This document shows positions 14,617 through 62,070 of a stretch of DNA of 64,000 bases, one piece after another (positions within the stretch are counted from its first letter, which is position 1; each line of letters begins with the position of its first letter). Below the pieces are notes generated by a model, which saw only the letters and a program-made list of their open reading frames with translations, searched no databases and had not been told where the DNA came from. The translations under genes were made by a program, and so were the position numbers. Source of the stretch: Gracilaria domingensis (lineage: Eukaryota; Rhodophyta; Florideophyceae; Gracilariales; Gracilariaceae); assembly GCA_022539475.1 (NCBI GenBank), contig VCMS01000169.1, forward strand, positions 339,333-403,332, read 5' to 3'.

Positions 14617-16319
14617 GTAACCGATAAATTAGTTAAACGAAATTAAATAATCTAGTACACCTCTAAGCAGGTCCGTAGACGTGGTGCACATGACAACCCG
14701 CGGCAGCGGCCAGTAAAATATCCGACAATCAGAACAAGACATGTGTGAACACACCTATTCCTACACACGCGTACACGCGACCAATACTCATCTGCGCCAC
14801 GTCATGGCCGTCCCCTCAGGGTGCCATACCTCAATACTGCCAAAACGTATCCCATCCGTGGGCCAATACTCATACCTTCCGAGTACCCGGAATCATCCTT
14901 ACCAGGGGTTTATGAAATCCTTCCCCGTGTACCGGGCGAGCACATTTTGCTCTACAGTTATGCCCAACAGCGTTTGCCTGGATATCTCCACTCGCTGTGG
15001 CTCGCCGGAATTACCCGGATTCTGCACCGATTCTACCCATCCCAATCTCCGGTTGCACGCCCAAGAGGGAGCTGCCCGGATTTACACCCGGCCTGTGTCA
15101 GTCCTATCAAAACGTTCTGGCACCGTCTCTACTCCTATAGTGAGCGGGTTTCGAACACCGCGTGGGTGAGATTTCCGCGATGCGGCTCTTGTTCGCCCAC
15201 TCGTGAGACTGCACCGCAGGTAGGGGTCTCAGCAATAAAACATTATCTAGGCAGTAACTCTTTCGAAAAACAAGACAACGAAAGACAATAGAATCACACA
15301 CTATGATCAATTTTCTACAAAAGCAGTTTCGATACACACTTCCAAAGCGTAATGAATCCAACAATATGTCAAATTGTCGGAGACAATCTAGGAAAGCTGC
15401 GAACTTTAGAGTCATCTACGATAATGAGACAAAAGCCCTGTGTACAGGCTAGAATTCTTAGTGAATAGGCAGGCTAGAATTCTTATTGAAGAGAGGAAAG
15501 TGTTCTTTAAACCCCTGCAGAGGGAAGAGACATGAACTTCGTTCGGACCCTTCCTTCAAATAGAAAAAAGAAGTAAGTAAACAGCTTTTGAAAATTGGGC
15601 AACGGTTTGAGTGTAAGTTGAGATCAAATTGTCCTCATGGGCGTAAGGAGCTCACAGAAATCGGTCGATGAGTCGCAGGTCGTGTGTGGACAACGTTTTT
15701 GCAAGTTTGAAAATATCACGAGACAAATAAACAGAACGATGGGGCACAAGCGGCGACGAGCAGACTGAGGTACGAGATCAACATGATCGGGCACAGAAAA
15801 AAAACAGACATACTGGTTGTGCGTACCTGTTAAGCAGAGATAAAAACAAAAGGAACAGTCTCTTTCTGTTTTGGTTTTTCCACTCATCAGCCGAGTTTGA
15901 ATACGGGCTTTGCTGCTCTGGTTTTTATCATGATATACATCACGGAGCTACGTTGATTTTTGTTGCCGTTTAGATTGGTACTCTCGAGCAATAAAATTGA
16001 TCTAATGTAGAAGTTATTTTGAAAAATATTGGCAAATGCGCTGTTTGACATAGCCCATTTTTTGAAATATTTTTTGTTTGTTGTAGAAAGCGGAAACGCA
16101 AGGCCAGCGCAGCAGATTGGTAATGTGCACATGTTGACCGCCAACGAGTAGGGCATTCGCCGGAACGGTCTTGCATTTTATTTTTTGCAAGGTGGCGCAA
16201 TGGGCAGCGCAATTTTGCAGCCCCGAAACGCTCTCAAAAACAAAAATGTCTCGCGTTTTCTGCGCTCGCCTTGCTGGAGGCCTCTAAGCCGTAAGGTTTT
16301 TTTAATGCCTTGTATCAGC
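14617..16319. other. Stretch 5' of the gypsy element
   Basis: This may include the rest of the LTR. Overlapping short plus-strand ORFs at 14,741-15,291 have no recognisable domain. A direct repeat of about 24 bp (CAGGCTAGAATTCTTA core) occurs twice in tandem at 15,446-15,490. Around 16,190-16,210 is a tRNA D-arm-like sequence without a T arm. Confidence 0.35.
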
Positions 16320-17475
16320 GTTTTGAGCAGTAAACTTCTCTAACTGAAAGACGCAAAGCTTCTCTAGAATTTATGTTTTGATACATAATTATTTTTCTTT
16401 AAGCCTACCATCAAGCCAAAAAAACTTCTTCATTTCATATATTAGTCTTCAGATAATTATCGTATGAAGAAGTTTTTGTTCCGTGAGTGTACCATCTGTA
16501 GCTCTTCTTTCTGTTTTGATATAGCATGACGCAGTTCTGCGTCATGTATAATAATTTACTTAAATATTGATCGTGCCATGGAACATACCCAGTTGGTTAT
16601 AGGAGCTATTTTGAAACTCTCGCAGACCTGATAGTCTGGAAGTGACCTGTGAAAATTATTAAAAGATAGATAGATTGTTTGTGTAAAGTATTCAGTACGA
16701 AGCGTTTAATTTGCTTAAGAATTAATACCTTGGAATCTTGGCTTTGAATTATATATTTCGAACTTAATGTAAAAAACAGAATTTCTCGTACTCAAAATGG
16801 AATATTACAAAACAAACCTTTACACAAATTTAAATTTAAATCTTGTGCTGTAACACATAGAGCTGAAGAAAGGTATTATGATATCCCAGAAAACCACTTA
16901 AACAAAAAATACAAAACAGAATAATGTTTTTGTTATGGCTCTGTTTAGGCTATATGTAGTGATTCTTAAATATTTTTGGATGCAATTACAGAAGAAACAC
17001 CTACAAATTTCTTGTACAAAACTCTTTGTTTTGTATATCACTTAAGGTACATTTCCTGTTAGCGCTGATGTGCGCAGTGTGGTTCGAGTGAACCTGGGAG
17101 CTGCCGGACGAACCCTCAGGAGGTTCTGTCTCAGCGTCTTTTATATGTTTTATTGTTTCCATTTTAGGAAACACTCTGCTAAGCTACTAAATAATTTAAC
17201 TATTACGTAGCACTATAGACTATTTCTTGTCCGCTATAATATTAGCCAAGTAAGAGCTTGACACTCTCTCAGATTATCTCTGACATTTCCCAAATGTGTG
17301 CTTGGAAGAAATTTTCTTTCTCGAGCCGCTCATTTGTTGGCATGGCAGTGATCCAATCACTGCAATGTTTCAAAAAAGGCCTTAAAGGCAACGCGTGACA
17401 CGGCTCATATGATTAAATGATTTTATCAGAATAGGACTGATGGTTTGAAAACAAAGGGATCATTCTATATATAAG
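16320..17475 (-). repeat. Dispersed repeat, copy B of inverted pair
   Basis: Reverse-complement relative of 768-1,452, collinear over its whole length, with an extra block of about 220 bp near 17,063-17,285 and another near 16,440-16,680. Copy A and copy B therefore face each other around a 15 kb block holding the gypsy elements. Divergence is high, so the arrangement is old. Confidence 0.7.
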
Positions 17476-24005: not shown

Positions 24006-24642
24006 ACCAGGGCTGCTCACAATATTATTGCAATATATTGCTCTGCAGAACGCAATATCCAATATTGGCTATCAAAATAACTTTTGCGCAATAAATATTG
24101 CAATATAAAGACTTATCTGCAATATTACTGCAATAATATCAGACAGTAGCCATAAGTTGTCAACTGAACTCATGCTTTAAGAATATGTTTATGGCTCAGC
24201 TCCTTGAAAAGTCAAGAACATTGTCACAGTGCTCGTAATCTGTTTTGAATTTACTTTTTGCTTGAAACGAGAGTAAAAAGGTCTGAAAACAAGCAAACGT
24301 TTCAAAAGCGTTTCATTTGAATTGTGATTTGTACTGTTTTGTTTAATTTTTGAAGCCATATATCACTTTTGCAGAAAATTCAAACGTACGTTGTATCTGA
24401 ATTTATTCTTTACAACATGTGTAGCTAACGTTAGCACTAAAAGTAGACCAACGCATGCTAGTGACATGTTTCCAATCAAGACGCAATAATCTAGCAATAT
24501 CTTCTTAGTCCCACAATAATAATTGCAGTAAGAAGAAGACTGCAATAAAAATTGCAATATGTTCAGGAACACGCAATAATGCATTGATATTGCTTATTGC
24601 AATATATTGCAATTGCAATTTATTGCTGAGGACCCCTGGTTT
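24006..24642. mobile_element. AATATT-rich MITE-like element with TIRs
   Basis: The left end starts ACCAGGGCTGCTCACAATA and the right end is the inverse of an ACCAGGGGTCCTCAGCAATA-type sequence, followed inwards by CAATATATTGCAAT on both sides. The interior is AT-rich, packed with TTGCAATATT palindromic motifs, and has no coding capacity. A CAGGG terminus is common in hAT-type non-autonomous elements, but I could not identify an 8-bp target duplication, so the superfamily is open. Confidence 0.6.
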
Positions 24643-24974
24643 GAATCAGGTTGCAGATATTTCCTGAAGGGAAGCTGACGGGATTGGGCGCAGCCATTTT
24701 AAACTAGGACGGACCTATGGAAAGTAACAACTCTCCAGGCCTTCGTGTCCAAGCATGTTTGAATCAGGTTGCAGATATTTCCTGAAGGGAAGCTGACGGG
24801 ATTGGGCGCAGCCATTTTAAACTAGGACGGACCAATGGAAAGTAACAATTCTCCAGGCCTTCGTGTCCAAGCATGTTTGAATCAGGTTGCAGATATTTCC
24901 TGAAGGGAAGCTGACGGGATTGGGCGCAGCCATTTTAAACTAGGACGGACCTATGGAAAGTAACAACTCTCCGT
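24640..24974. repeat. 118-bp tandem repeat, about 2.8 copies
   Basis: Units start at 24,640, 24,758 and 24,876 with TTTGAATCAGGTTGC and differ at only a few positions (for example ACCTATGG versus ACCAATGG). The third copy stops after AAGTAACAACTCTCC. The array abuts the right end of the MITE-like element and ends about 245 bp before the glutamate-cysteine ligase start. Confidence 0.92.
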
Positions 24975-27492: not shown

Positions 27493-29646
27493 AATTGATT
27501 TTCTTTTTTGCCTTGCTTTATGTTAAATGCTAGTACTGCTTCTATACAAAGCGCGACAGAATGTTGGCGGATAGTTTAACATTTTAACACTTGGTTTGAC
27601 TTGATTGTCCATTGAAGTACGGTTCTTGAAGTAGAAGATCTGGCATTGACCGCAAAGATTACGTTTTTCAGTTGACAACGTAGTCTGAGAGAACCGCACT
27701 GAACCTGCGGAGGGCAAAACTTTTCTTGGCCGTGCGACGTTAGTCAAATACTGGGATGATGTCCAAATCGCAATACCGTTCAAAACGTTTGGCCAAAGTT
27801 TGCCACTGCACGTAGTTGCTTGGTAAGATTGGTAATTTATTCCACACTGTCCACTTCGCCAGAACAAATGTGGCATGTGGCACATTTCAAAACCGAGTAA
27901 TTCGTTTACTCACTTTCGGAGAAGCCTGCGCTTGTGGCAGGCATTGCCTTTCGTCCTAGAATGGGATGTCAATGCCATGGCGATAGACATTGGGGACGAA
28001 ACCTCCCAGCTCGTGGCGGTTGCTCGCCACAGTAGACGCTATAGGCATTAAGTTATACTATAACCGTATTCGTCAGGGATGCTTGGGAGGGTGGGAGAAA
28101 AAGAGAGAATTGGCAGGACGAGAGGAGGGTTGGCCAAGATGAACGTGGATTGAGATGCGGAGCTGTCCGGGATTGAACAGACGCAGTGAAATAAACTTGC
28201 GGGTAATATACGAGTAGGAACAACCAGTTCACACAGCAGGAAGGACACCAAGAAACGCAACCACCCACGCAGTCTGCATTGCAATGTTGGCTGTCGACTG
28301 TCACCCACGCAGGTCTAATAAATAACAGAACGTTTGGACGGGTGCATTTGCGTCTCGTTGCCAGATGTTCCAATAAAATATCATCTTCGATTAGTCCAGA
28401 AATTAGCACACATCGTGTAGTAAGATGCCGATCTACATGTAATTGATATCATAGAATGTGAGGGTAATCTTTACCTAGATAGGGGACTTTCAAAAAAGAA
28501 AGAATTTCTCTGGACGGTCGAACTCGAAACCTCCAAACGAAATATATAGGAAAGGTATGAGAGATCACCCTTGGGTAGATACCGTTGGTACCCTTATATT
28601 GATCAGATCGTTGGAGAAGAAATCGGTGTTTACAGCAGGCGTTAACTGATCGATCTATTTTCGTCTCCGAGTTTTGGCCGCTTGTATGCTGAATTATACC
28701 CCAGGGGTATCGGCATTTCAAATTTCAAAAAACTATAATTTCGAGGAACGAAGAAGAAGATTTATGTAAGCGAATGACACGCGTAAGCTCTAGATACGCT
28801 CATTACAGCGACTGAAACTGGCGAATGCACCGCCGGCGATCGCTGATCTATCTTCTCGCTCCTCGCGATGGTGGCGCGGTTACCATTACCGTCGGGAGTC
28901 GAGCCCAATGTGAGGTCTGGTTGCTTTGTTTTGTTTCTGATCTGCCTTTGTACCCGCGCTGCATAACTCAACACACTCATCCATTTGCGTCGTGATTTCC
29001 GCTTCCACCGCCAGAAGCCGCTCCGCCTCACACCCCGTTTCAACCGCGATCGCAACCTGAAGATCAAAGAAATGGTGGACTCGGATGTGGACTTCGTGCA
29101 AAATATTCCAACCGCTCTCTTTCCCACTAACTGCGCGTTGACGACAGGGTCATGAAGAAAAGAAAACTTAGTAACGCATTCCTTTTGTAATTGTTTACTC
29201 ACGGCTGGTAACCTAGATGCTCGAGGACTCTTGATACCTTTCTTCTGACGTCTCTGGTTTTTTCCTATGGGGTTCTTTTTCAGATTCGATCAAGGTTTTA
29301 GTGGTCTTGGAAGTCCGTCAACGGCATCTAGGGTTGGGATCTAAAGAGCTGCTCGATCACCACTGCGATCTCGCGTTCGGGACGGGAGCAGCATCCCTCT
29401 TGTAGAGAGGTGCTGAGTGCGATGGACAGTGTCCATTTAGCACGACAGGGTCGAGTTCCGATCCCGTCACCTGACCAACCGAGGCATGAAGATCTTGAGC
29501 GAAAGCTCGTCAGATAGCGAACGATAAATGGAATGCATGAAGATGCAGATTATTTTAGTTTGTTGAAGCGAATATTCTGAACAAAGATTCATTCTCGACC
29601 AGATACGCGATTCCCAATTTCCGTTTTTTGTACCGTTGGTAGCACT
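27493..29646. other. Intergenic region with possible LTR debris
   Basis: Short ORFs only. The minus strand at 28,330-28,360 reads CTGGCAACGAGACGCAAATG, which resembles primer-binding regions after gypsy LTRs, but no LTR pair was found. GTGGCGGTTGCTCGCCAC near 28,010 is a short hairpin. A 120-codon minus-strand ORF at 27,523-27,885 with five Cys is unrecognised and overlaps the likely GCLC 3' UTR. Confidence 0.3.
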
Positions 29647-29981
29647 GGTGATCTTGAGGCATGAATAGGGCGGCACTAGTTCTTTGTCAGATGTACCAAC
29701 TTGGTACCAACTTAGATCCAACTGTACCAACTTGGTACCAACTCGGTACAAACTTGGTGCTCTTGAGGCATGAATAGGACGGCACTAGTTCGGTATCAGA
29801 TGTACCAACTTGGTACCAACTTGGTACCAATTCGGTACAAACTTGGTGATCTTGAGGCATGAATAGGGCGGCACTAGTTCGGTATCACATGTACCAAGTT
29901 GGTACAGTTGGCACCATGTTGGTACCAAGTTAGTACATCTGATACCAACTAGTGCTGCCCCATTCATGCCTCAAGATCACC
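29647..29981. mobile_element. Foldback element with GGTACC-rich tandem units
   Basis: The ends are inverted copies of GGTGATCTTGAGGCATGAAT continuing through the CACTAGTT region (left 29,647-29,681, right 29,947-29,981). Inside, the left end is repeated directly at 29,756 and 29,845, and each unit carries several ACCAACTTGGTACCAA dyads. The result is two direct units plus a terminal inverted unit, able to fold into a long hairpin. No ORF. The right end lies 60 bp before the 5'-nucleotidase start, so the element sits in its promoter region. Confidence 0.75.
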
Positions 29982-30041: not shown

Positions 30042-31715
30042 ATGAAGCTCATTGTCGCTCTGTGTTTTATCTCCGCGTTGTGCTCTGCACACGCGCTGCG
30101 CCTCTGTCATCACGTAAGTGCACACCCCCATGCCCAGGCATTCACAGCTCTCCATACTCACATTTGCTCCGTCGTCTCTTAGAACGATTTCCACGCCAGA
30201 TATGCCGAGATTAACCGCTTCAACTCGCCGTGTAGCGACAAGGACAGTCTCGAGGGTAAGTGTTATTCTGGCATTGCTCGCATTGCCAACGCCGTTTCCG
30301 TGAGTTATGCCCGTCCATTGGTCACAACCTCGCGCATCAGAGCTCGTTCCAACCTTCTGACCACACGTCCACCTCTCCTTCACGTAGCTTCTTGCGTGCG
30401 ACCTCATTATTCATGTGGGAGATTTCGTACAAGGCTCCGTGTATCACACCATCTTCGGCGCTGAGATTGCGTCCGATGCCTACAAATGGGTCGGTTATGA
30501 TGTTGCTGTGCTTGGTAATCATGAGTTTAACCAAGGTCCGTCCGATGTGTACGAAGTGGTGCAGAACAATCCAAACACCACTTGGATTGCCTCCAATGTG
30601 CACTTTGAAGGTGCTCCCGAAGGCTTTTCAATCGCTCCGTTCGTCGACGCTTTTGATGTCTGCTGGGTGTCCGCTCTGACCACCGCCACCAACGTCATCT
30701 CTAACCCCGGCCCCAACGTCACTATCACCGATGAAGTTGATGCTCTCAACAAAGCTATTGCTGCCTGCTCACAGAACCAGAATGTGATTGCCATTAACCA
30801 CGTTGGCTTCGAGAAGGACGTGCACATGTGCGAGATCATTGCCGAACTCGACGTCGTCATAGGAGGGCATTCGCACACCAATCTCGATAACGCTCAATAC
30901 CCTCATAGCTTGTTCGTGAGGACGGATCAGTGTGTTGGGTCCTCACAGCGTACGCGTTCGGCCGTTATGTGGGCTTTGTGGACGTATCGTTCGATGAAGG
31001 CGTTGCTGAACTTTCCGGACATGCATACATGCCGATGGACGCACGCGTACCGCTCTCGCACAACGTTTCTACCCAATTGGCCATGTACACTGAGCGATTG
31101 GACAACTCTATCAAGCAGACCATCGCCGTCGCGTCCGAGCCTATTGACGGCTCACGCGAGTCGTGCCGCTCACAAGAGTGCCAAATGGGAAATCTTGTAT
31201 GTGATGCCCTATTGGCGCATGCCGGTCCCCAACAAGGAGCACAAGTGTGCATCCAGAATGGCGGTGGTTTGCGCGCGTCCGTAGATGAAGGTGAAATCAT
31301 CATTAAGGAAGTTCTCACCGTGCTTCCGTTTGGAAACGTTCATGTTGTTGTGTCAGTTCCTGGAAGTGCGATAGTAGCGGCGCTGGAAAATGGGTTCTTG
31401 GCGTTGTCTAATGACGAGATTGCTGGACGTTTTCCGCAGGTTGGTGGAATGAAGGTGGTGGTGGATGACTCCCAACCAGAGGGGGAGCGCGTCGTTTCGG
31501 TTACTATCGACGAAGAGCCTATCGAGATGGGCAAGGAATACAAGCTCGTGACCAACAGCTTTGTGGCTTCCGGGGGTGACGGATATGACTGGTCTGCAGC
31601 CACCGAGTCGGAACTTTCGGGACTGGGTCTGGATGCTCTCACTCAGCGCTATCTTGGAAACAACTCCCCGTACACTCCATTCACGGATGGTCGTATCGTG
31701 AAGGTGGGTACCTAA
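30042..31715 (+). CDS. Secreted 5'-nucleotidase family, frameshifted
   Basis: Exon 1 (30,042-30,113) encodes a signal peptide (MKLIVALCFISALCSAHA). Introns 30,114-30,182 and about 30,300-30,387 join HHNDFHAR, KCYSGIARI and HVGDFVQGSVYH. The metallophosphatase block continues with GNHEFNQGP, GHVGFEKD-type NHVGFEKD and GGHSHTN. The C-terminal nucleotide-binding domain has CQMGNLVCDALL, NGGGLRASVDEGEI, TVLPFGN and NSFVASGGDGYD. Family members hydrolyse extracellular nucleotides to nucleosides and phosphate. Between GGHSHTN and TAYAFGRYVG the frame changes near 30,930, in a TGTGTTGGG run, with no plausible intron, so it is either a real frameshift or a base-call error. The rest of the gene is well preserved. 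Confidence 0.85.
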
Positions 31716-34023: not shown

Positions 34024-35544
34024 TCCGAGATATGAAGACATGAATGATGCGGAAAGGAGAAAGGACGAATCACAAGTTTCTGCGAAAGGGTATCGACGAG
34101 TTCAAGTGATTTCGAAATCGCGCTGCGAAAACTAAGAGCGCGTCACGGAACAGATACCCTGAATGAATCCTCTGCCTTTTCCACCACATTATGTATTATC
34201 GTTCTTTTTCGACGATCTGGTGTGTTTTGAAGTGTTCTTAGAAAGCATATCTTTCGAATTAATCTGGCCTTATTGGACAGGCGGTGATGATCGGTTTTGG
34301 AGAATCCGTGTGCATTTCCTGGATTTAAAAGTAAATCTATGCTAGTGTTCGAAACGAGTGGTTGAACCTGTTGTGGGGGTTTTCTCGGGAAGATCGCGGG
34401 GCCGAGAGAATCTGTTTTTGCCGCCCTGATCTCACCTACCAGCTGCGCTCAACAAGGTTCCCCGAATTAGACTGTTGCTCTGAATGGGTGTGGGTACTTT
34501 TCTAATCACAGAGCGAGGAGGAAAGTAGGCGTATGGTTGAGGCAAATCCGTGACAGAGGTTGGTCCTGAGGGGCATAGGGCATTTCTATTCCCCGGGGCA
34601 ACAGAATTGCCTGAGGGCCAAAATATTGATATCATACATTGTTTGTCTATAAACCTTATTTATGTTTTTTAAAACTTCAAAAGACACGTAATGTATGAAA
34701 GATTGAGTGCACAAGATGCAACATCTCATACCGAGCAACAACCTCACAGTCATAGAGTGAAATGCATTAAAGCAATGTTCCTTACGCAGAACAACATCAA
34801 TAAGGGTAACGAAATTTTGCCATACTGTTCGCAACGATAAAACAACCACACTATATCGTTTCGAAGTTGTTTAAAACGTAGACCCATCGCTGATGCCATG
34901 CTAGATAGCATGTTTCAAATCTGGAGTGAATAGATAGTCAACCTGTGGAACGAATGCAAGGCACGAGTTCTTATGCGACCACTATCGCTGCATCGCAATC
35001 CACAATTGTTGACGAAAGAAATGCAAAGGCGTGAAAGATAAAAGATGCTTACAGTGTTCTATCCCAGTTGTGAAAAGCTGTTGATAGAGAGAAACAGACG
35101 GGACAGTATTCGATTCTCGTAGTACCTATCAAGGGTAAGCGACAATTTGTAATGGAATGTGCTTGGAAGAAGAACGAAAATTCGCTCCACAGACAGCACC
35201 GCGAAAAAGACCATCAGAGGCTTTAGAAGGATGCGTACGAACGAAAGGAGGAGCAGATCTTTTGGGGGAGGAGCAATATAGAGGGCGAGTGGCCCTCTGT
35301 TGGCCAAGTTTTGCATCGCAATTGAGTTCGTTCCAATAGCTTTAAACTGATTGAGCATATTGCAGGTTTATAGTTTTGTTGCAAGCGTTGCAAAGCAGCG
35401 AAGCGAAAGGGGAAGCTTCGGAGCGAATTCATTTGAAGGTGTCAATATGCAAATACGCCGCGTTGCCTCAAACAAAACAGTTTTTGAGCCACTTGAGCAC
35501 CAATTGAAAAACAAAAATATTCCAAGCTATTTGCATTCAAATTC
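34024..35544. other. Intergenic region left of the palindrome
   Basis: No ORF above 100 codons and no recognisable domain on either strand. Base composition is ordinary and changes to clearly GC-rich on entering the palindrome arm. Confidence 0.45.
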
Positions 35545-35846
35545 CATGACGACCGCTGCCGTCGTACACGAGCGCCATGGTACACGTGTTCAATTGCTCC
35601 GGCACCTCAACGTCCTGACAAACGCATCGACTTCGTAGACTCGCCCGCACATCCGCCCGCCTTCGCCACTGCGAGGTCGCTGCCGCCGCCGGCTTGCGCT
35701 GTGTACCCACCGCCCTCCATAGAACCAAGCCCGACATCCCCGTTCTCCACTCAGACAAACCCGTGTACCGCGGTGGGCTGCCACCGAGTCACCAGCACCG
35801 CACCTTGCTTAGGACGCCGCGGCAGCAACAGCACGACCGCGTACCC

Positions 35847-36998
35847 TCATCCCATGGTGCGTCCACGACGTCGCTGCCATAACCCTGCTACAAATTCCCT
35901 TTGGAAGGCGCGTAACCTCTGCGACAGGCTTCGCACATCATCATCTCGCCACCCATGGTCTCGCCGCGATTGAGAAGCCGCTACAATTAGATCGCGCGCA
36001 AACTCCATCTCGGCTGCTGTGACGGGCAGCGGTGGCGGCGGGAGTTGTATCCCTTGCGCTGTGAACGATGTACCGGCATGGTAATGCGAGTTGGTTGACC
36101 ATACCAGGTTGTGCGTCGGGGGCTCGAGCGGTGCTTCCCTCCTTGCAGCCACCTGATTACGGTGAACGTTTACTGCCATGGAATGCGTCGCCGTCGATTC
36201 CAATTCTCTCGCGTCCGCCGTTCGAAGGACTTGATGACGCGCGTCGGTCGCCGTTGGCAGCACATCAGCACGCCCGCTTGCAGCCGCGGAGCACTCCAAG
36301 ATGACTAGGTTGTGTCCACCACGTTCGCGGTGCGTGTAGGTGGCGGCGGTGACGAGCTCGGATGCAACTTGCTCGTAACGCGGCTGCGTCCTCGGTTCGT
36401 CGCGAAAACGCACTTGGAGACGTCGGCGCTTCGGCGACCGCGACCGCGATGGTGCACGCGTGCTGACGAGCAGCGGCAAAGAAGGGAAGTGCTGGCGATG
36501 GACGTCATCCTCGCGATGGATGTCATCCTCGCAATCGACGTCGTCCTCACCATGCAGCATGGTCGCGAAGTCCCTCTTACTGACGCGTCGCAGCGGGCGT
36601 GGGGGAAGGTGGCTTGCCGGTAGCCCACAAGTCATGAGCGCGTCGCGATTCGTAGGACGAGGCGTCAGTGGCGGGAACGGCAGATTCGTATGCGGCGTGC
36701 GTGGCGCTGCGAGAGGTTCGTGGATGCGGCGGCCAGTTTGGTGGCGACGGCGATGTTTGCGGATGCGAGAGCGCGCCACAGCGCGGGATGTGGCCGGGGA
36801 TCGCGGCTGTTCTGCGGCATTGGCGGCGGATGCGGTGGAGGAGTAAGAGCTTGACGGGGAGGAGGAAGCGACGCAGCAAGGCGGGGTGGTGTCAAGTGAC
36901 GTGCGTCGACGGGCGGGTTGTACGATGCGCCCGGTTGGTGGCTCGTACGACGAAGAGGAGGCGGCAGAGCTTGAATGGGTGTCCGCGGAGCTGTTCAT
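35847..36998 (-). CDS. Basic Ser/Arg-rich protein, left copy (383 aa)
   Basis: Mirror image of 41,961-43,112 with an identical protein. It starts in a GCCATGAAC context after a pyrimidine-rich leader. Visible parts: Ser-rich N-terminus; Arg/His-rich segment R-SRIRKHRRRHQTGRR (about residues 75-90), a likely nuclear-localisation patch; a threefold acidic repeat (E-D-D-V/I-x-C/H-R, about 150-168); a second basic patch SRSRSPKRRRLQVRF (about 180-195); and a C-terminal half without low complexity, predicted helical near AEMEFARDLIVAASQ. No family recognised. Long overlapping antisense ORFs are expected in GC-rich DNA, so coding status rests on leader, length and conservation between arms. Confidence 0.55.
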   Translation of the reverse strand: MNSSADTHSSSAASSSSYEPPTGRIVQPARRRTSLDTTPPCCVASSSPSSSYSSTASAANAAEQPRSPATSRAVARSRIRKHRRRHQTGRRIHEPLAAPRTPHTNLPFPPLTPRPTNRDALMTCGLPASHLPPRPLRRVSKRDFATMLHGEDDVDCEDDIHREDDVHRQHFPSLPLLVSTRAPSRSRSPKRRRLQVRFRDEPRTQPRYEQVASELVTAATYTHRERGGHNLVILECSAAASGRADVLPTATDARHQVLRTADARELESTATHSMAVNVHRNQVAARREAPLEPPTHNLVWSTNSHYHAGTSFTAQGIQLPPPPLPVTAAEMEFARDLIVAASQSRRDHGWRDDDVRSLSQRLRAFQREFVAGLWQRRRGRTMG

Positions 36999-37028
36999 GG
37001 CGGGCGAAGAAAGGCGGATGTAAGGTCG

Positions 37029-37100
37029 AACGAAGCGGGTAGTTTGAGCGAAGAAGAAAGGTTGAGCAAAGAAGAACGGTTGAGCATCGAAGAATGGTTG
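37029..37100. repeat. 17-19 bp tandem repeat, left copy
   Basis: Four imperfect units of the GCTCAACC-TTCTTCTT type (minus strand) immediately upstream of the 383-aa ORF; mirror of 41,859-41,930. It lies in the likely 5' leader or promoter. Confidence 0.75.
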
Positions 37101-37654
37101 AGCAAGGCACGCGGGGGAGCGGTGAGGGGAGCGAGCTTGCGCCTTATGGGCGCCCGTTGCGGGAGGACGCGCTCCATTGCGGCGGCGACGGCTGGAGAGG
37201 CGCGCTCCTCTTCGGGGGCGTCTCTGACGGCGACGCTTTCGTGCGCGACGCAGACGGCGGCGGCGGGACGCGCTGACTACATCTCGCGTCGAGGTGCGTC
37301 AATGGTACAGCAATGCGTAGTCGCAGCGCTTGCAATTAAATTCTCAGTCCGCCCATCCAATTATCGTTTGGCGAGTTCGCATTCGAACCAACCCGTGTCG
37401 AACACGGACGCCCTAACCGGAGGGCGTCCTCCCGTTGGTACCGCCGGTACCTTCGTACCTTCGTACCTTCGTACCTTTGGGAAGGTGTGGGCAATGCGAT
37501 GCTGGAGCCCGCCGGGGATCGTCGACTGGTGTAGTAGGTCTGGGTGTCCCAGCGCTCAGACATTTCAGTTTGTTCAAGTTAATTTATCTCCGAGTACTAC
37601 GATTTCTATCGTTCTACCCTCACCCTCGCCAACCCTCCTCCCCATCACGCCTTC

Positions 37655-38440
37655 TCAATCGCTGTAGCAGCTCGGCCCAAATCGCTCCTCCGTCTCAGAC
37701 GTGACGCTGCACGCCTCCAACACGTAAAACCAACAACCCCGCGGCGAAAGCCCGCCCGCTGCTGCCCACGCTTTGTCGGCGTGTGGCCCACACCCCGTTC
37801 CACTTGCCGCTACCACGCGCGGCGCAAAACGTCTGCCGAATTTGGCACCGGCCGCCGCCGCCTCAGCCAGCCCTTCGTAGTGCCTCAAGCTTTGACCGCT
37901 GTTTCTGTCCATGGCGCGGCGGCGCTCTTCAAAGCGCTGTCTCTTCCACGCACGGTGCGGCGAGGGGGACTTCGCTCGCGCCATGGTGCGGTTGCGAGCG
38001 GCCATGTGAGTAAGGTGACGCTTCAACGAGGGCGGGCAGGGCGCCGGCGAGGGTGGTGAGGCCGGCGGCGTGAACGGTGCGATGAGGGAAGAGGAAGGTG
38101 AAGCGCGTTGCACGATTTCGCTGTCTGTGCTTTCACCAGACAGGTCGTCCGCGTCTCTCTTCCTTCCCCGACGCTGCGGCAGCGGTGTCTCCGCGGGGCT
38201 TGGGTGTGGTGGCGGCGTGGGCGAGGTTTTGCCCCGGACATAGGCAGTGCGACGGCGAGGGCGGCGCTGTCGGAAGGCCTGGCGATTGCGGCGTTTAACA
38301 ATGTTTGCTCGCGATCGAAGGCGCGACGCGATCAGCCCATCGAGCGTCGCCGCTTGTGGGGTGGGCGGGGCGGTTGCATCTGAGGACGATAAGTTGGCGG
38401 CAGTGCAATCGCTGGAGCCGGTGGGGGTAGCGCTCGTCAT
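37655..38440 (-). CDS. Basic Arg/Pro-rich protein, left copy (261 aa)
   Basis: Mirror image of 40,519-41,304 with an identical protein. It starts in CACCATGACG after a strongly pyrimidine-rich leader. Features: an Ala/Thr/Ser N-terminus; a basic stretch with KRRNRQAFRQRRPRRR (about residues 48-63), a probable nuclear-localisation or nucleic-acid-binding patch; a Pro-rich linker; KRDADDLSGESTDSE, an acidic Ser cluster resembling kinase sites (about 94-108); a second basic helix-like stretch near HRAWKRQRFEERRRA; and a Gly/Ala-rich tail. No known domain. Layout resembles the neighbouring 383-aa protein, so the two may be old paralogues. Confidence 0.55.
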   Translation of the reverse strand: MTSATPTGSSDCTAANLSSSDATAPPTPQAATLDGLIASRLRSRANIVKRRNRQAFRQRRPRRRTAYVRGKTSPTPPPHPSPAETPLPQRRGRKRDADDLSGESTDSEIVQRASPSSSLIAPFTPPASPPSPAPCPPSLKRHLTHMAARNRTMARAKSPSPHRAWKRQRFEERRRAMDRNSGQSLRHYEGLAEAAAAGAKFGRRFAPRVVAASGTGCGPHADKAWAAAGGLSPRGCWFYVLEACSVTSETEERFGPSCYSD

Positions 38441-39025
38441 GGTGCGATGATGAAGTTGGCGGTAAGCGGGAATATGAAGAAGAACGTGAAAAGGATGAGA
38501 TAGAACGCGGAAGAGGAGGGAGCTGGAAACAAGGGAGAAGCAAGGTTGGATGGGGACTCGAATTATGTCAGCGGCAGAAGCACACGGCGCGGATTATTAC
38601 GAAATGACTCCCCCGCCACGCGGGAGGCGGCGGGAGAGGCCATGCGTAATTGAGGTGGCGGTTGGCGAGCAAACCTGTTGGAGAGGGGCTTTCCGTTTCG
38701 GGGGCGATGCCCTCGGCGAATTTGCTTTCGTGATCAATGCCTCCAGCTTTTGTGGAGTAGCTAAGGTTTGTGTTAATGCAACATTCGCTACGGACACGTA
38801 GTAATTGTCCTTACCTTCTCACCTGCTTTTGTGAATCATTTGTCCATCATCAGCTGTCTCTTCATTACATTCGCATATGCGTCAGAAGCCAATGAAAACG
38901 TTTAAGCACGTATTTGTTTACCCTTTCCAGCATCCAACCTCTTCAGTTTTGCATTTTAAGATACCAATGAGTGTGTTCTTTGCCTAGCGGGATTACTTGG
39001 CTTGAATCGCTCATCAACACTTGGG

Positions 39026-39032
39026 TATAAAG
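39026..39032 (+). promoter_or_regulatory. TATA box of spacer gene
   Basis: TATAAAG in TTGGGTATAAAGGTGG, 139 bp upstream of the ATG at 39,165, a distance similar to that at other genes in this window. Confidence 0.55.
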
Positions 39033-39164
39033 GTGGCGTTGATCAGAAGGTGCGGCCTGCAAAACTTCGTACTGCCTCATTCCACACCAATCGTCTTTCT
39101 TTCCAGCAGTTCTAAGTTGAAACATTTATTCTTTGTCAACGATTAATAGCTTAGCGCACAGAAG

Positions 39165-39638
39165 ATGGGAATCATTTGCAGCTGTTTCAATGGAAAGATG
39201 ATTGGCCTTCGTAACAAGCAGCAGGAAGATGTAGACAGTCCACTACCCGAGAGCAATGCTGCATGGGGAGAGACAAGAAACGGAGTCTCTGATAGAGGAC
39301 AATACGCTGAGTACGACCTGCAAGAAAGTTTAGAAGATGTGGTTGCCATAGCTAAACAAGAAGACGTTGACGTTTGTTGTACTTTGATAGAGGAAGCTGT
39401 GAGTTTGGAAACAGGATCTTCGGATGGTGAGAGCATTTCTGAAACTCGGAATACCACTGCTCGTGTGCCAGGCATAGTCGACGAACGAGAGTTGCCTCCA
39501 TTTCAAAGTCGCGTTTTGTTCTTCGAAAAGTTATGCATGAATGATAGCGTGGACGAGAAGCTAAAACTTGACATACCTACAGATGAATTGCATTGCAAGA
39601 CGGCGGCCTATACGCACAAAAGAATAGTGCATACATAA
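39165..39638 (+). CDS. Acidic protein with myristoyl/palmitoyl N-terminus
   Basis: This 157-residue ORF starts MGIICSCFNGK. Gly2 with small residues and Cys5/Cys7 fits co-translational N-myristoylation plus palmitoylation, predicting attachment to the cytosolic face of the plasma membrane. The rest is acidic and probably largely disordered (DVDSPLPES, QEDVDVCCTLIEEA, SSDGESISETRN), with a more structured C-terminal third (LPPFQSRVLFFEKLCMND). No transmembrane segment and no recognised family. It is the only gene in the spacer and has its own TATA box 139 bp upstream. It could be a signalling adaptor or scaffold, but that is inference from the N-terminus alone. Confidence 0.65.
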   Translation: MGIICSCFNGKMIGLRNKQQEDVDSPLPESNAAWGETRNGVSDRGQYAEYDLQESLEDVVAIAKQEDVDVCCTLIEEAVSLETGSSDGESISETRNTTARVPGIVDERELPPFQSRVLFFEKLCMNDSVDEKLKLDIPTDELHCKTAAYTHKRIVHT

Positions 39639-40518
39639 ATTTATGTTGTGATAAGCTTTGCGCTCAAGTGCGATGGTGATTTAACTTACAACTGCTGCTT
39701 CGCAACAGCACTACGTTGTTGACAGTCCATTGCAAGCGATCGCCAACTTCGTTACGGTATGCACGTGTGCAGGCACAACGTGTCTCGTACTCCTCCCCTG
39801 AAAGGTTATTACGGGGACACCCTTGACTAGAGGATGAGCTGTACACTTTCTATGTTTTTGAAGAGTTTCCCGGCTACCTTGCGTTGCCGGAAGCTCTCCG
39901 CAGTTTGAGATGTTTGAGTGCGAAGTTCAAAAGCTTAAACTCGACGGATACGGAGCTCGTTACACGACTACCACTTTGAACCCGGGCACACCATGTACAC
40001 TTTTCAATATCTTCTATCTGCTCTGACACCTGAAAGACCTCATAAACCGGTGCTTAAACGTTTTCATTGGCTTCTGACGCATATGCGAATGTAATGAAGA
40101 GACAGCTGATGATGGACAAATGATTCACAAAAGCAGGTGAGAAGGTAAGGACAATTACTACGTGTCCGTAGCGAATGTTGCATTAACACAAACCTTAGCT
40201 ACTCCACAAAAGCTGGAGGCATTGATCACGAAAGCAAATTCGCCGAGGGCATCGCCCCCGAAACGGAAAGCCCCTCTCCAACAGGTTTGCTCGCCAACCG
40301 CCACCTCAATTACGCATGGCCTCTCCCGCCGCCTCCCGCGTGGCGGGGGAGTCATTTCGTAATAATCCGCGCCGTGTGCTTCTGCCGCTGACATAATTCG
40401 AGTCCCCATCCAACCTTGCTTCTCCCTTGTTTCCAGCTCCCTCCTCTTCCGCGTTCTATCTCATCCTTTTCACGTTCTTCTTCATATTCCCGCTTACCGC
40501 CAACTTCATCATCGCACC

Positions 40519-41304
40519 ATGACGAGCGCTACCCCCACCGGCTCCAGCGATTGCACTGCCGCCAACTTATCGTCCTCAGATGCAACCGCCCCGCCCACCC
40601 CACAAGCGGCGACGCTCGATGGGCTGATCGCGTCGCGCCTTCGATCGCGAGCAAACATTGTTAAACGCCGCAATCGCCAGGCCTTCCGACAGCGCCGCCC
40701 TCGCCGTCGCACTGCCTATGTCCGGGGCAAAACCTCGCCCACGCCGCCACCACACCCAAGCCCCGCGGAGACACCGCTGCCGCAGCGTCGGGGAAGGAAG
40801 AGAGACGCGGACGACCTGTCTGGTGAAAGCACAGACAGCGAAATCGTGCAACGCGCTTCACCTTCCTCTTCCCTCATCGCACCGTTCACGCCGCCGGCCT
40901 CACCACCCTCGCCGGCGCCCTGCCCGCCCTCGTTGAAGCGTCACCTTACTCACATGGCCGCTCGCAACCGCACCATGGCGCGAGCGAAGTCCCCCTCGCC
41001 GCACCGTGCGTGGAAGAGACAGCGCTTTGAAGAGCGCCGCCGCGCCATGGACAGAAACAGCGGTCAAAGCTTGAGGCACTACGAAGGGCTGGCTGAGGCG
41101 GCGGCGGCCGGTGCCAAATTCGGCAGACGTTTTGCGCCGCGCGTGGTAGCGGCAAGTGGAACGGGGTGTGGGCCACACGCCGACAAAGCGTGGGCAGCAG
41201 CGGGCGGGCTTTCGCCGCGGGGTTGTTGGTTTTACGTGTTGGAGGCGTGCAGCGTCACGTCTGAGACGGAGGAGCGATTTGGGCCGAGCTGCTACAGCGA
41301 TTGA
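40519..41304 (+). CDS. Basic Arg/Pro-rich protein, right copy (261 aa)
   Basis: Identical to the protein at 37,655-38,440; see that entry for its parts. On this strand the leader (40,416-40,518) is almost entirely pyrimidine and the start is CACCATGACG. A GGACGCCCT...AGGGCGTCC hairpin (41,531-41,554) and a GGTACGAA tandem repeat (41,484-41,515) lie in the presumed 3' region. Transcription runs outward, towards the 383-aa ORF 656 bp downstream. Confidence 0.55.
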   Translation: MTSATPTGSSDCTAANLSSSDATAPPTPQAATLDGLIASRLRSRANIVKRRNRQAFRQRRPRRRTAYVRGKTSPTPPPHPSPAETPLPQRRGRKRDADDLSGESTDSEIVQRASPSSSLIAPFTPPASPPSPAPCPPSLKRHLTHMAARNRTMARAKSPSPHRAWKRQRFEERRRAMDRNSGQSLRHYEGLAEAAAAGAKFGRRFAPRVVAASGTGCGPHADKAWAAAGGLSPRGCWFYVLEACSVTSETEERFGPSCYSD

Positions 41305-41483
41305 GAAGGCGTGATGGGGAGGAGGGTTGGCGAGGGTGAGGGTAGAACGATAGAAATCGTAGTACTCGGAGATAAATTAACTTGAACAAACTGAAATGTC
41401 TGAGCGCTGGGACACCCAGACCTACTACACCAGTCGACGATCCCCGGCGGGCTCCAGCATCGCATTGCCCACACCTTCCCAAA

Positions 41484-41554
41484 GGTACGAAGGTACGAAG
41501 GTACGAAGGTACCGGCGGTACCAACGGGAGGACGCCCTCCGGTTAGGGCGTCCG
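41484..41554 (+). repeat. GGTACGAA tandem repeat plus hairpin
   Basis: Three to four direct copies of GGTACGAA run into GGTACCGGCGGTACC and then a perfect 9-bp hairpin GGACGCCCTCCGGTTAGGGCGTCC. The mirror copy is at 37,405-37,475. It may mark a 3' end or a protein-binding site. Confidence 0.7.
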
Positions 41555-41858
41555 TGTTCGACACGGGTTGGTTCGAATGCGAACTCGCCAAACGATAATT
41601 GGATGGGCGGACTGAGAATTTAATTGCAAGCGCTGCGACTACGCATTGCTGTACCATTGACGCACCTCGACGCGAGATGTAGTCAGCGCGTCCCGCCGCC
41701 GCCGTCTGCGTCGCGCACGAAAGCGTCGCCGTCAGAGACGCCCCCGAAGAGGAGCGCGCCTCTCCAGCCGTCGCCGCCGCAATGGAGCGCGTCCTCCCGC
41801 AACGGGCGCCCATAAGGCGCAAGCTCGCTCCCCTCACCGCTCCCCCGCGTGCCTTGCT

Positions 41859-41930
41859 CAACCATTCTTCGATGCTCAACCGTTCTTCTTTGCTCAACCT
41901 TTCTTCTTCGCTCAAACTACCCGCTTCGTT
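41859..41930 (+). repeat. 17-19 bp tandem repeat, right copy
   Basis: Four imperfect GCTCAACC-TTCTTC-TT units directly upstream of the 383-aa ORF, in a pyrimidine-rich leader. Confidence 0.75.
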
Positions 41931-41960
41931 CGACCTTACATCCGCCTTTCTTCGCCCGCC

Positions 41961-43112
41961 ATGAACAGCTCCGCGGACACCCATTCAAGCTCTGCCGCCT
42001 CCTCTTCGTCGTACGAGCCACCAACCGGGCGCATCGTACAACCCGCCCGTCGACGCACGTCACTTGACACCACCCCGCCTTGCTGCGTCGCTTCCTCCTC
42101 CCCGTCAAGCTCTTACTCCTCCACCGCATCCGCCGCCAATGCCGCAGAACAGCCGCGATCCCCGGCCACATCCCGCGCTGTGGCGCGCTCTCGCATCCGC
42201 AAACATCGCCGTCGCCACCAAACTGGCCGCCGCATCCACGAACCTCTCGCAGCGCCACGCACGCCGCATACGAATCTGCCGTTCCCGCCACTGACGCCTC
42301 GTCCTACGAATCGCGACGCGCTCATGACTTGTGGGCTACCGGCAAGCCACCTTCCCCCACGCCCGCTGCGACGCGTCAGTAAGAGGGACTTCGCGACCAT
42401 GCTGCATGGTGAGGACGACGTCGATTGCGAGGATGACATCCATCGCGAGGATGACGTCCATCGCCAGCACTTCCCTTCTTTGCCGCTGCTCGTCAGCACG
42501 CGTGCACCATCGCGGTCGCGGTCGCCGAAGCGCCGACGTCTCCAAGTGCGTTTTCGCGACGAACCGAGGACGCAGCCGCGTTACGAGCAAGTTGCATCCG
42601 AGCTCGTCACCGCCGCCACCTACACGCACCGCGAACGTGGTGGACACAACCTAGTCATCTTGGAGTGCTCCGCGGCTGCAAGCGGGCGTGCTGATGTGCT
42701 GCCAACGGCGACCGACGCGCGTCATCAAGTCCTTCGAACGGCGGACGCGAGAGAATTGGAATCGACGGCGACGCATTCCATGGCAGTAAACGTTCACCGT
42801 AATCAGGTGGCTGCAAGGAGGGAAGCACCGCTCGAGCCCCCGACGCACAACCTGGTATGGTCAACCAACTCGCATTACCATGCCGGTACATCGTTCACAG
42901 CGCAAGGGATACAACTCCCGCCGCCACCGCTGCCCGTCACAGCAGCCGAGATGGAGTTTGCGCGCGATCTAATTGTAGCGGCTTCTCAATCGCGGCGAGA
43001 CCATGGGTGGCGAGATGATGATGTGCGAAGCCTGTCGCAGAGGTTACGCGCCTTCCAAAGGGAATTTGTAGCAGGGTTATGGCAGCGACGTCGTGGACGC
43101 ACCATGGGATGA
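41961..43112 (+). CDS. Basic Ser/Arg-rich protein, right copy (383 aa)
   Basis: Identical to the protein at 35,847-36,998; its parts are described there. The start GCCATGAAC follows the tandem-repeat leader. Because the last 200 bp of the arm are diverged only beyond the stop codon, both copies keep identical coding sequence while their 3' flanks differ. That could reflect homogenisation that reaches just past the gene. Confidence 0.55.
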   Translation: MNSSADTHSSSAASSSSYEPPTGRIVQPARRRTSLDTTPPCCVASSSPSSSYSSTASAANAAEQPRSPATSRAVARSRIRKHRRRHQTGRRIHEPLAAPRTPHTNLPFPPLTPRPTNRDALMTCGLPASHLPPRPLRRVSKRDFATMLHGEDDVDCEDDIHREDDVHRQHFPSLPLLVSTRAPSRSRSPKRRRLQVRFRDEPRTQPRYEQVASELVTAATYTHRERGGHNLVILECSAAASGRADVLPTATDARHQVLRTADARELESTATHSMAVNVHRNQVAARREAPLEPPTHNLVWSTNSHYHAGTSFTAQGIQLPPPPLPVTAAEMEFARDLIVAASQSRRDHGWRDDDVRSLSQRLRAFQREFVAGLWQRRRGRTMG

Positions 43113-43435
43113 GGGTACGCGGTCGTGCTGTTGCTGCCGCGGCGTCCTAAGCAAGGTGCGGTGCTGGTGACTCGGTGGCAGCCCACCGCGGTACACGGGG
43201 TTGTCTGAATGGAGAACGGGGGCGTCGGGTTTGGGTCTGTGGAGGGCGTTGGGTACACAGCGCAAGCCTGCGGCGGCAGCGACCTCGCAGTGCAGGAGGC
43301 GGGCGGATGTGAGGACGGGTCAACGAGGAGCGCGGCAAGATGCGTTTTATGGCGAGGTAGAGGTGTGGGCTCAATTGGAGCAATAGAACACGTGTACCCG
43401 TTGTGCTCTTGGACACGGACATGGCCGTCATGGAA

Positions 43436-48835: not shown

Positions 48836-50998
48836 TTACTCTTCAACTGCGTTCAGAAGCTCTTCGAAATCATGTTCCGAAGTCATTAGGCTATTTAGAC
48901 TTCGAAGGTCATTCTTTGTAAGCTCTGCGACATTTATATAGGTCGACTCATATGAATCACCACAAGAAACCTCCACATTATCCATACCACCATTTTCGTC
49001 ACAGCTGTCTCCGCCCCGGTCGACCAACATCTCGATGAATGGATCTTCAGTTACCTTATTCTGGCACTTCGAACGCGGGCACTCGCACCCTATGCACTTC
49101 AAGTTTCGTTTGACACATGAACAGTGCCTTGTAATGCAGGTTCCTTTGCATTTGCACTTAGCCAATAGTTCCCTTATTTTCGTCTCAATCGCTTTCACGT
49201 CTTCTTGTCGCTCTAGTAATAAATCTCCGTTACTTGTGAAGCCTGAATCAGCGTTACAACCTCCAACGAAGTCGGGACTCAATTCATTCTTCTCAGCTTG
49301 GTACCAGTACTTGAACACTATGTGTCGTACTCTCTTAGTTTGATTATCAACATGCTCTGAAGGTGGTATCAGCACATTCAAAGACCTTGATAGATCTGCC
49401 ACAAAGCTTCTGACATCTAAACACCAATCTTGGGTACCCACATCCCATTCACTAACAAAAATTTCCTTTGCACGTCGCATTGCGTCTTCCTCGCTGCATC
49501 CTTCTGATACCCACTTTTCTCGAAGCCTTTCCTTTTCTCGGCTGTTCGTAAGATACCTGAAGCCATGTTTCTCGAGATAGGCGAAGAGAATGAGTAATTG
49601 TAAGGAAGAGGAATCATCTGCGTCTCCGATGCCATTTAAGAATGACACATTTCTTAAACATGCCCTGAAGTAGTGCACATGTGTTACACCGTACGTTCCA
49701 GCAGAGAAGTCACATCCTGCCATAACGTAGCAGCTTGCGAACATTGTCGCACTAACTCCTTCTCTTCGGAGAGTTTCATTTAGATTGTCTAAGTCAACGA
49801 CTGCGTCACCCAAGACATGTATGACATTCATGTCTCGCATACATTGAGCGAGCGCTAAAATTATTGTCACATCCGTATCTCTCGAGACCAGAACACATCC
49901 GCTTTTTCCCGGCGATTCCTTGAGATCAGACTCATAAATGGTAGGCAATACGAATGTGTTGAATGCAGCCACAAACCTGGTCTCAGACTCTCCATGCGTC
50001 AGATAACTGTCATTTATGTGCAGTCCATGAGCAGAGGAAAACACTAGTGGCCTATTTCGCGGTACTTGAAGCAGTACATCTTCAAATTCGACTGCCTCTT
50101 GTCCTAGATGGGTTACGTTCGTCATTTGCTCTTTTGATTTCGAGTGTAGAGTAGTCTCATAGGTATGGTCGTTGACATGGGGGTCGGTCGAAGTACCGTT
50201 ATCTTTGTGGTGATCAAGCTTGGCCTCAACATTCTGCACTAGAGCCTTCGGCATCAGCAACACCTCACCTCCTCGTGGATGTTCAACTGTCTCATCTTTT
50301 GCTGCAAGCTCTGGAATCAATTCACTGGCAATCTTTCCAATGCAAGCTGGGCGTATACTGAAACAACCACCGTTCAGATATATGTCAATGTTGCGATTAT
50401 ATTCGTCTGCATGCTCCAGTCCAGCAACAGCCCCACAAAACAAATGTAATGAACTGATAGCATCTCTGCTAATTCTGGAGCTCAATAGTGTTCCCCATGG
50501 AACAGTAATGGGGAGCAAAAATCCCAATTTGTAGAGTTCTTCTTCTCCCTTTAGCTTCGAGTCCTGGCACATATCTCGCGCATAGTCGAGACGACCTTGC
50601 TCTCCAGACTTCTGTTTGATGACGTTGGATGGGTCATCGATATGGAGATGGAGTTGTTTAAGACATTCGGCCCGTTTCCCACTGAACCATGGTCGCAACA
50701 ACTGTTTCATCTTCAGAACTGTAACAGCGTGCATACTGTTTCCTCGTGACCCGTCAGTACCTCTGCTTCAAATATGATTCATGACATCAATCATGATCGA
50801 GATATACTGAGGCATTTGGTAGTCGTAGTAGTAGTAAACGTTCTTTCTACTGGATGTCGGACGTCTTATGGAACTCAGAACCGAATTTCCATCTTGTCTG
50901 AGGAATTCAAGATTCAAAGCGGATATTAGCTGACTTTTGTTGGCATGCCTCACGGTATTTCCCAACGAAAGATATGCATCTGCGTGTGGTGATAACAT
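48836..50998 (-). CDS. PIN/XPG-like nuclease with CXC zinc domain
   Basis: A frame of about 720 codons starting at ATG 50,998, interrupted once by TGA at 50,768-50,770; the longest uninterrupted part starts at 50,734 (632 aa, used for numbering). Residues 247-350 carry a PIN/FEN1-like pattern: HGESETRF, VLVSRDTDVTII, VVDLDNL and MAGCDFSAGTYGV. Acidic residues sit at the places where such nucleases bind metal. Residues 527-559 are a CXC zinc domain (CKCKGTC, HCSCVK, CIGCEC, KCQNK). An acidic tail follows. PIN/XPG plus a Cys-rich finger recalls proteins of Academ-type DNA transposons and related domesticated proteins. That assignment is from memory and untested. The terminal inverted repeats expected of a transposon were not found. 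Confidence 0.65.
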
Positions 50999-61619: not shown

Positions 61620-62070
61620 TATCATTCTGTCGTACTGGGCGGGCGAGGAACAAGTTGTGTTACGGTCGCTACCTTAACACAACTTGACTACCCTGCCCGC
61701 GGGCACGTTACGTTTTGGCTGGGTTGCCTGCGTTGCGTGTTTTGGGAGGTCTGTGGACGCTACCAGAACGAGGCAAAAACGTGCCGCGGGCGGGGGGTCG
61801 GTTGTGTTAGGGTCGCTACCCTAACACGACCGGACCCCCCGCCGCGGGCATAAAATCGCACATTTTTCAAAAAATCGGCCGAAATGTGCCCGCGGGTGGG
61901 GGGGTCCGGTCGTGTTAGGGTAGCTACCCTAACACAACTGACCCCCCCGTCGGGCATAAAAAAGCACATTTTTAAAAAAACCGGCCAAAACGTGGCCGCG
62001 GACAGGGGGGTCGGTTGTGTTAGGGTAGCCACCCTACACAACCGACCCCCCCGCGCCCGTGGGCACGTTG
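61620..62070. repeat. Array of four long palindromes, telomere-like dyads
   Basis: Palindromes are centred near 61,668, 61,816, 61,924 and 62,029. Each has arms of about 17-22 bp: a GGGGTC-GGT-GTGTTAGGGT stretch meeting its inverse (the first is more degenerate). Units of about 105-108 bp also share TAAAA-GCACATTTTT-AAAAA--CGGCC spacers and a CCGCGGGC box. The dyad places GTTAGGGT against ACCCTAAC. Confidence 0.88.

Follow-up and report, generated by a model that had tools for sequence, protein, structure and literature searches.

A palindrome in Gracilaria domingensis with identical ORF-bearing arms and an abrupt outer step to older, diverged homology

The locus and its surroundings

The window considered here, the whole stretch of DNA that was analysed, comprises 64,000 nt of the genome of the red alga Gracilaria domingensis. 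Its genes lie mostly in long frames and have a eukaryotic look; among them are a glutamate-cysteine ligase that matches PDB entry 3ig5, a reverse transcriptase carrying RNase H domains, a ferritin-like protein and a 5'-nucleotidase. Between 35542 and 43435 there is a palindrome, in which two inverted arms, each with two open reading frames termed A and B, surround a spacer with an open reading frame of its own (Table 1). Comparison of the sequence confirms that the palindrome exists, and it is by far the longest of the 14 inverted pairs found in the window by a repeat search.

Several smaller repeats and genes were recorded around it. Older inverted matches (74-83% identity, in pieces of 88-200 nt) at 817-1449 and 16314-17424 lie on either side of the region that contains the reverse transcriptase ORF. 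A unit of 118 nt is repeated at 24639-24972, upstream of the glutamate-cysteine ligase ORF, in 2.8 tandem copies with 98% matches. At 29615-29981 there are nested repeats, direct as well as inverted, composed of GTACCAACTTG-like 11-mers together with a unit of 89 nt. The 5'-nucleotidase at 30388-31715 is split near 30.9 kb over two overlapping frames, one holding the metallophosphatase part and the other the C-terminal domain, and may be a pseudogene, contain a short intron or carry a consensus error. On the forward strand, 47676-48779 matches the PCIF1 WW-domain family weakly, at 23.7 bits against a curated cut-off of 31.1. This stretch is followed on the reverse strand, at 48836-50767, by an ORF of 643 aa for which Pfam gave nothing up to E 0.1 and whose cysteine-rich C-terminal stretch presumably resembles the CXC domains of transposon-linked genes. 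Finally, a 106-nt unit is present in 2.7 copies at 61772-62053, where inverted arms 36-49 nt long are 92-96% identical. No tRNA was found by a tRNA search, and RNA family searches gave no match in the window at gathering scores; a search of 35500-40100 was also empty up to E 0.5.

Table 1. Features of the palindrome, in window coordinates
Feature	Position	Strand	Remarks
Left outer fringe	35542-35759	+	older diverged homology
Left arm	35760-38909	+	identical to the reverse complement of 40050-43199; 0 of 3,150 sites differ
ORF B, left copy	35847-36998	-	383 aa; no family match; codon periodicity z 1.3
Leader before ORF B	36999-37118	-	pyrimidine-rich (75%); mirrored at 41841-41960
ORF A, left copy	37655-38440	-	261 aa; no family match; codon periodicity z 0.5
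Leader before ORF A	38441-38560	-	pyrimidine-rich (77.5%); mirrored at 40399-40518
Spacer	38910-40049		1,140 bp; halves without mutual homology; G+C 0.452, like the flanks
Spacer ORF, probable gene	39165-39638	+	157 aa; periodicity z 4.1; frame first of six; no family
Right arm	40050-43199	-	identical to the reverse complement of 35760-38909
ORF A, right copy	40519-41304	+	identical to left copy
ORF B, right copy	41961-43112	+	identical to left copy
Right outer fringe	43200-43435	-	partner of 35542-35759

Open reading frames of the arms and spacer

A preliminary description of this DNA had reported the same two proteins in each arm, reading away from the spacer and neither of them recognised. 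Both ORFs were indeed found in each arm in the outward orientation. Neither they nor the spacer ORF had a Pfam match up to E 0.1 or an NCBIfam match up to E 1, and the PHROGs collection, searched up to E 1, returned only three weak matches, to families of unknown function (E 0.096-0.24). ORF B had no match among solved structures up to E 1. Viral contigs contained no relatives of ORF A, ORF B, the spacer ORF, the reverse transcriptase ORF or the ORF at 48.8-50.8 kb, and prokaryote genomes contained none of ORF B. Searches of the arm DNA and of ORF A against phages, and of ORF B against plasmids, were likewise without a match. The possibility that A and B are paralogues was considered and found no support (blastp E 4.8).

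The coding signals of A and B are mixed. In the comparison of codon-position periodicity from which the values in Table 1 are taken, nine other ORFs of the window reached z 6.2 to 30.3, and an antisense ORF of the arm and the stretch between A and B each reached z 2.4, above both A and B. When the arm was shuffled 1000 times, 66 of the shuffled sequences contained an ORF that began with ATG and reached the length of A, and 3 contained one that reached the length of B. When frames were ranked by a codon usage learned from ten ORFs of the window, a procedure which placed the own frame of a left-out ORF first in 10 of 10 cases, the frames of A and B came first of six by small margins; the antisense ORF of 230 aa also came first of six. 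The ORF strand of the arm has 38 ATGs, and a pyrimidine content of 75% or more in the preceding 120 nt is confined to the two at which A and B start. Seven other ORFs of the window are without such a leader (pyrimidine 0.44-0.57), so a pyrimidine-rich leader is no general mark of genes in the window. Judged from these features of the sequence, A and B are probably genes, encoding basic, low-complexity and mostly disordered proteins. Structure models from the single sequences were of low confidence, with several helices and a mean pLDDT of 59.3 for A, and with a mean of 44.5 and two C-terminal helices, at 328-348 and 352-377, for B.

Identity of the arms and the outer fringe

Within 30-48 kb the repeat search gave one inverted pair, 35633-38909 and 40050-43326, of 3,277 nt with 1,140 nt between the members. 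The 100% complementarity assigned to this pair is a rounded figure: a base-by-base comparison about 39,479.5 found no mismatch and no gap over the 3,150 bp of the arms, and 16 mismatches at 35633-35759. An exact match of 3,150 bp is ruled out as a product of chance. Gapped local alignment extended the homology further outward, to 35542 and 43435. The preliminary description, in which two arms of 3.27 kb mirrored each other exactly and without indels, is thus correct for the inner 3,150 bp; it does not hold for 3,270 bp, because of the 16 mismatches. The outer part of the gapped alignment has 24 gap columns. Its observation that ORF translations match from about 35,760 inwards coincides with the true step in identity. 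The spacer, which it had called unique, has halves with no homology to each other above shuffled controls (Smith-Waterman score 20.0 against a shuffled mean of 20.7; 200 shuffles), and the same is true of the flanks beyond 35542 and 43435 (18.5 against 24.5; 200 shuffles).

The outer fringe is 86.5% identical between the two sides, with 186 matches and 29 mismatches (11 transitions and 18 transversions) in 215 aligned bases. Identity is even through its successive blocks (0.857, 0.846, 0.883 and 0.867) and then rises abruptly to 1.000 inside. Were the 29 mismatches placed at random over the 3,365 aligned sites, the probability that all would fall in the fringe is given by log10 P = -35.4; the gapless stretch 35640-35759 alone, with 15 mismatches in 120, gives log10 P = -21.9. 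Divergence between the arms themselves has a 95% upper limit of 0.095%, which is lower than that of the fringe by a factor of about 142. At the inner edge, the arms are 100% identical to the last homologous base, without a diverged remnant.

Base composition

The arms differ in composition from their surroundings. Over 35600-38760 the G+C content is 0.625, as against 0.452 in the spacer and 0.462 and 0.454 in the flanks, while the inner 150 bp of the arm have 0.413. The arms have an observed/expected CpG ratio of 1.24, and the remaining four stretches have ratios of 0.91-0.97. The G+C richness of the arm extends into the fringe down to about 35600, and fringe and arm therefore look like parts of one original unit. 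Conversion biased towards G+C was considered as the source of this richness and rejected, since the fringe, which would have escaped conversion, is equally rich, and the inner 150 bp, which would have been converted, are poor. At the 15 differing sites of 35640-35759, G or C is found on the left at 8 and on the right at 8. It may be that the unit arrived with its own composition, perhaps from elsewhere.

Origin of the identical arms

The confinement of all 29 mismatches to the fringe implies that the inverted homology arose first and that the inner 3,150 bp became identical only much later. Under a joint duplication of arm and fringe with no later copying, mismatches would be expected throughout, and a single recent inverted duplication of the whole unit is rejected on account of the step from 86.5% to 100%. 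The comparison of the two sides suggests, instead, that an inverted homology was there earlier and that about 3 kb passed later from one side to the other, by gene conversion or by one-ended copying. The interpretation first offered for the palindrome, which named very recent duplication and ongoing arm-to-arm gene conversion, is supported in part. The identity step supports recent copying between the sides over older inverted homology and speaks against duplication of the whole unit in one step. The word ongoing is unsupported, as one event suffices.

The concern that the structure is an artefact of assembly, also raised at the outset, has two sides. Chimeric reads and reads with a missed adapter are known failure modes that yield false palindromic structure, but the diverged fringe, the differing flanks and the non-repeated spacer speak against such an origin here. 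It is also possible that a real inverted repeat with differing arms had its reads pooled into one consensus; this could explain why the identity is exact but not why there is a repeat at all. The perfect agreement over 3,150 bp would fit such pooling; so would the split 5'-nucleotidase at 30.4-31.7 kb, which may reflect consensus errors, and the lack of any such error that differs between the arms. We nevertheless regard homogenisation during assembly as unlikely, because genuine differences are retained in the fringe right up to 35759 and because arms 86% identical are normally told apart by an assembler. The suggestion of a mobile unit with long terminal inverted repeats has fared worse. A terminal-inverted-repeat or fold-back element with ends at 35542 and 43435 would explain the long inverted arms and their G+C of 0.625 amid 0.45-0.46, and remains of transposons do occur in the neighbourhood. 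Yet the outer ends have no target duplication, the longest common word within 20 bp being 4 nt, as the preliminary description had itself remarked; they are the diverged part of the homology, whereas the ends of terminal inverted repeats should be well kept; no further copy lies within the 64-kb window; and arms and spacer gave no transposase-like or integrase match in Pfam, NCBIfam or PHROGs, although non-autonomous elements may lack one. If each arm is taken as a unit of its own, a common 6-nt word is found near its ends but does not abut them, and the number of such words expected by chance in two 40-nt stretches is 35 x 35 / 4096, or about 0.3. The mobile-element reading is accordingly disfavoured, as highly improbable, and the palindrome is not classed as a transposon.

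There remain two ways in which one side could have been copied from the other, and the older homology visible beside the homogenised part, in a contiguous fringe at 86.5% against 100%, is expected under both. We consider it slightly more probable than otherwise that two full, diverged arms existed and that about 3.15 kb of one was recently overwritten from the other by arm-to-arm conversion. A possible but on the whole doubtful alternative is that one side had only a short diverged inverted repeat, the present fringe, and that the second arm was made anew: a broken end would have entered the full arm at its fringe, been extended inward over 3.15 kb by break-induced replication and then been joined to the spacer side without homology. 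Break-induced and microhomology-mediated copying appear in the available literature as a documented route to duplications, and this course would account for the diverged outer edge together with the abrupt inner edge. The absence of a diverged remnant at that inner edge is a point against conversion, and one-ended copying accounts for it at least equally well. Conversion is preferred because it requires no pre-existing isolated fragment of fringe, whereas one-ended copying does; moreover, the G+C of the fringe is high, as in part of a full unit. The sizes of conversion tracts in the human palindrome P6, for which the available part of the report gives a mean minimum of 2,068 bp and values up to 9,023 bp (PMC3723533), make a tract of 3.15 kb plausible in a single event.

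Under arm-to-arm conversion, a G+C-rich unit with two outward ORFs would have stood on both sides of an unrelated spacer, once in each orientation, and its copies would have drifted to about 86.5% identity. In one or several recent recombination events, one arm would then have served as template for overwriting about 3.15 kb of the other, the tract being limited inwardly by the spacer and outwardly at 35760 and 43199, so that 218-236 bp of the older homology were left as fringe. The likely mechanism would be a break in one arm, from which a strand invades the other arm, either of its own chromatid or of the sister chromatid, followed by copying and by resolution without structural change; resolution by crossover would flip the spacer. 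The outcome would be two identical copies of A and B evolving together. The route of conversion and its direction, like the expression of A and B, are matters that we infer.

Comparison with known palindromes

The palindrome is of a known kind, exemplified by the inverted gene pairs of Caenorhabditis elegans and the palindromes of the Y chromosome, at a new place and with a clear boundary. In the available portion of a study of Caenorhabditis, the F44E5.4/F44E5.5 inverted repeat has arms of 2,207 bp, a spacer of 126 bp and 99.7% identity, and the HSP16 locus has two genes per arm and 100% identity between the arms; the structure outlives its sequence in several species, though it has been lost at HSP16 in C. 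briggsae, and the authors, who consider gene conversion, lean to selection on structure (PMC1803023). As in these pairs, a spacer lies between long near-perfect inverted repeats whose two arms hold the same genes, here probable ones. The spacer described here is longer, however, and contains an ORF, the arm ORFs are without a match in the families searched, and the palindrome is known from one sequence, whereas persistence across species has been demonstrated in Caenorhabditis.

The amplicon palindromes of sex chromosomes are much larger than the present one. Accounts of human P6 (PMC3723533), willow (PMC7023750) and the primate X (PMC8981503) describe, in the parts available, inverted arms like those seen here, kept alike by arm-to-arm conversion with multi-kb tracts and rare inversions. 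Conversion biased towards G+C has been seen in mammalian palindromes according to the sources at hand, while the even distribution of G or C over the differing fringe sites gives no sign of it here. In yeast, the arms of short inverted repeats become alike when one is copied from its partner, with inversion of the spacer possible, as may apply here; that template-switch case, as far as its available text goes, involves short repeats, unlike the 3.15 kb of the present arms (PMC8604942). No paper on the present locus was recognised in the literature searched, which is no claim that none is in print.

Implications

A more far-reaching proposal, which we consider very unlikely, is that the palindrome is a self-maintaining inverted cassette, selfish or dosage-keeping, in which two orphan, basic and largely disordered proteins of foreign-looking, G+C-rich origin would be kept alike by continuing conversion between the arms, around a spacer gene that can be flipped. 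We know of no selfish or dosage-keeping palindromic gene unit in the host lineage.

The clean boundary of homogenisation, from 86.5% to 100% within continuous homology, separates recent duplication from older homology with recent copying by means of one sequence. Active upkeep of gene-bearing palindromes is, to our knowledge, little documented in the host lineage. The finding would carry greater weight if relatives of this alga had the same structure with a different sequence, which would amount to active upkeep of this kind.
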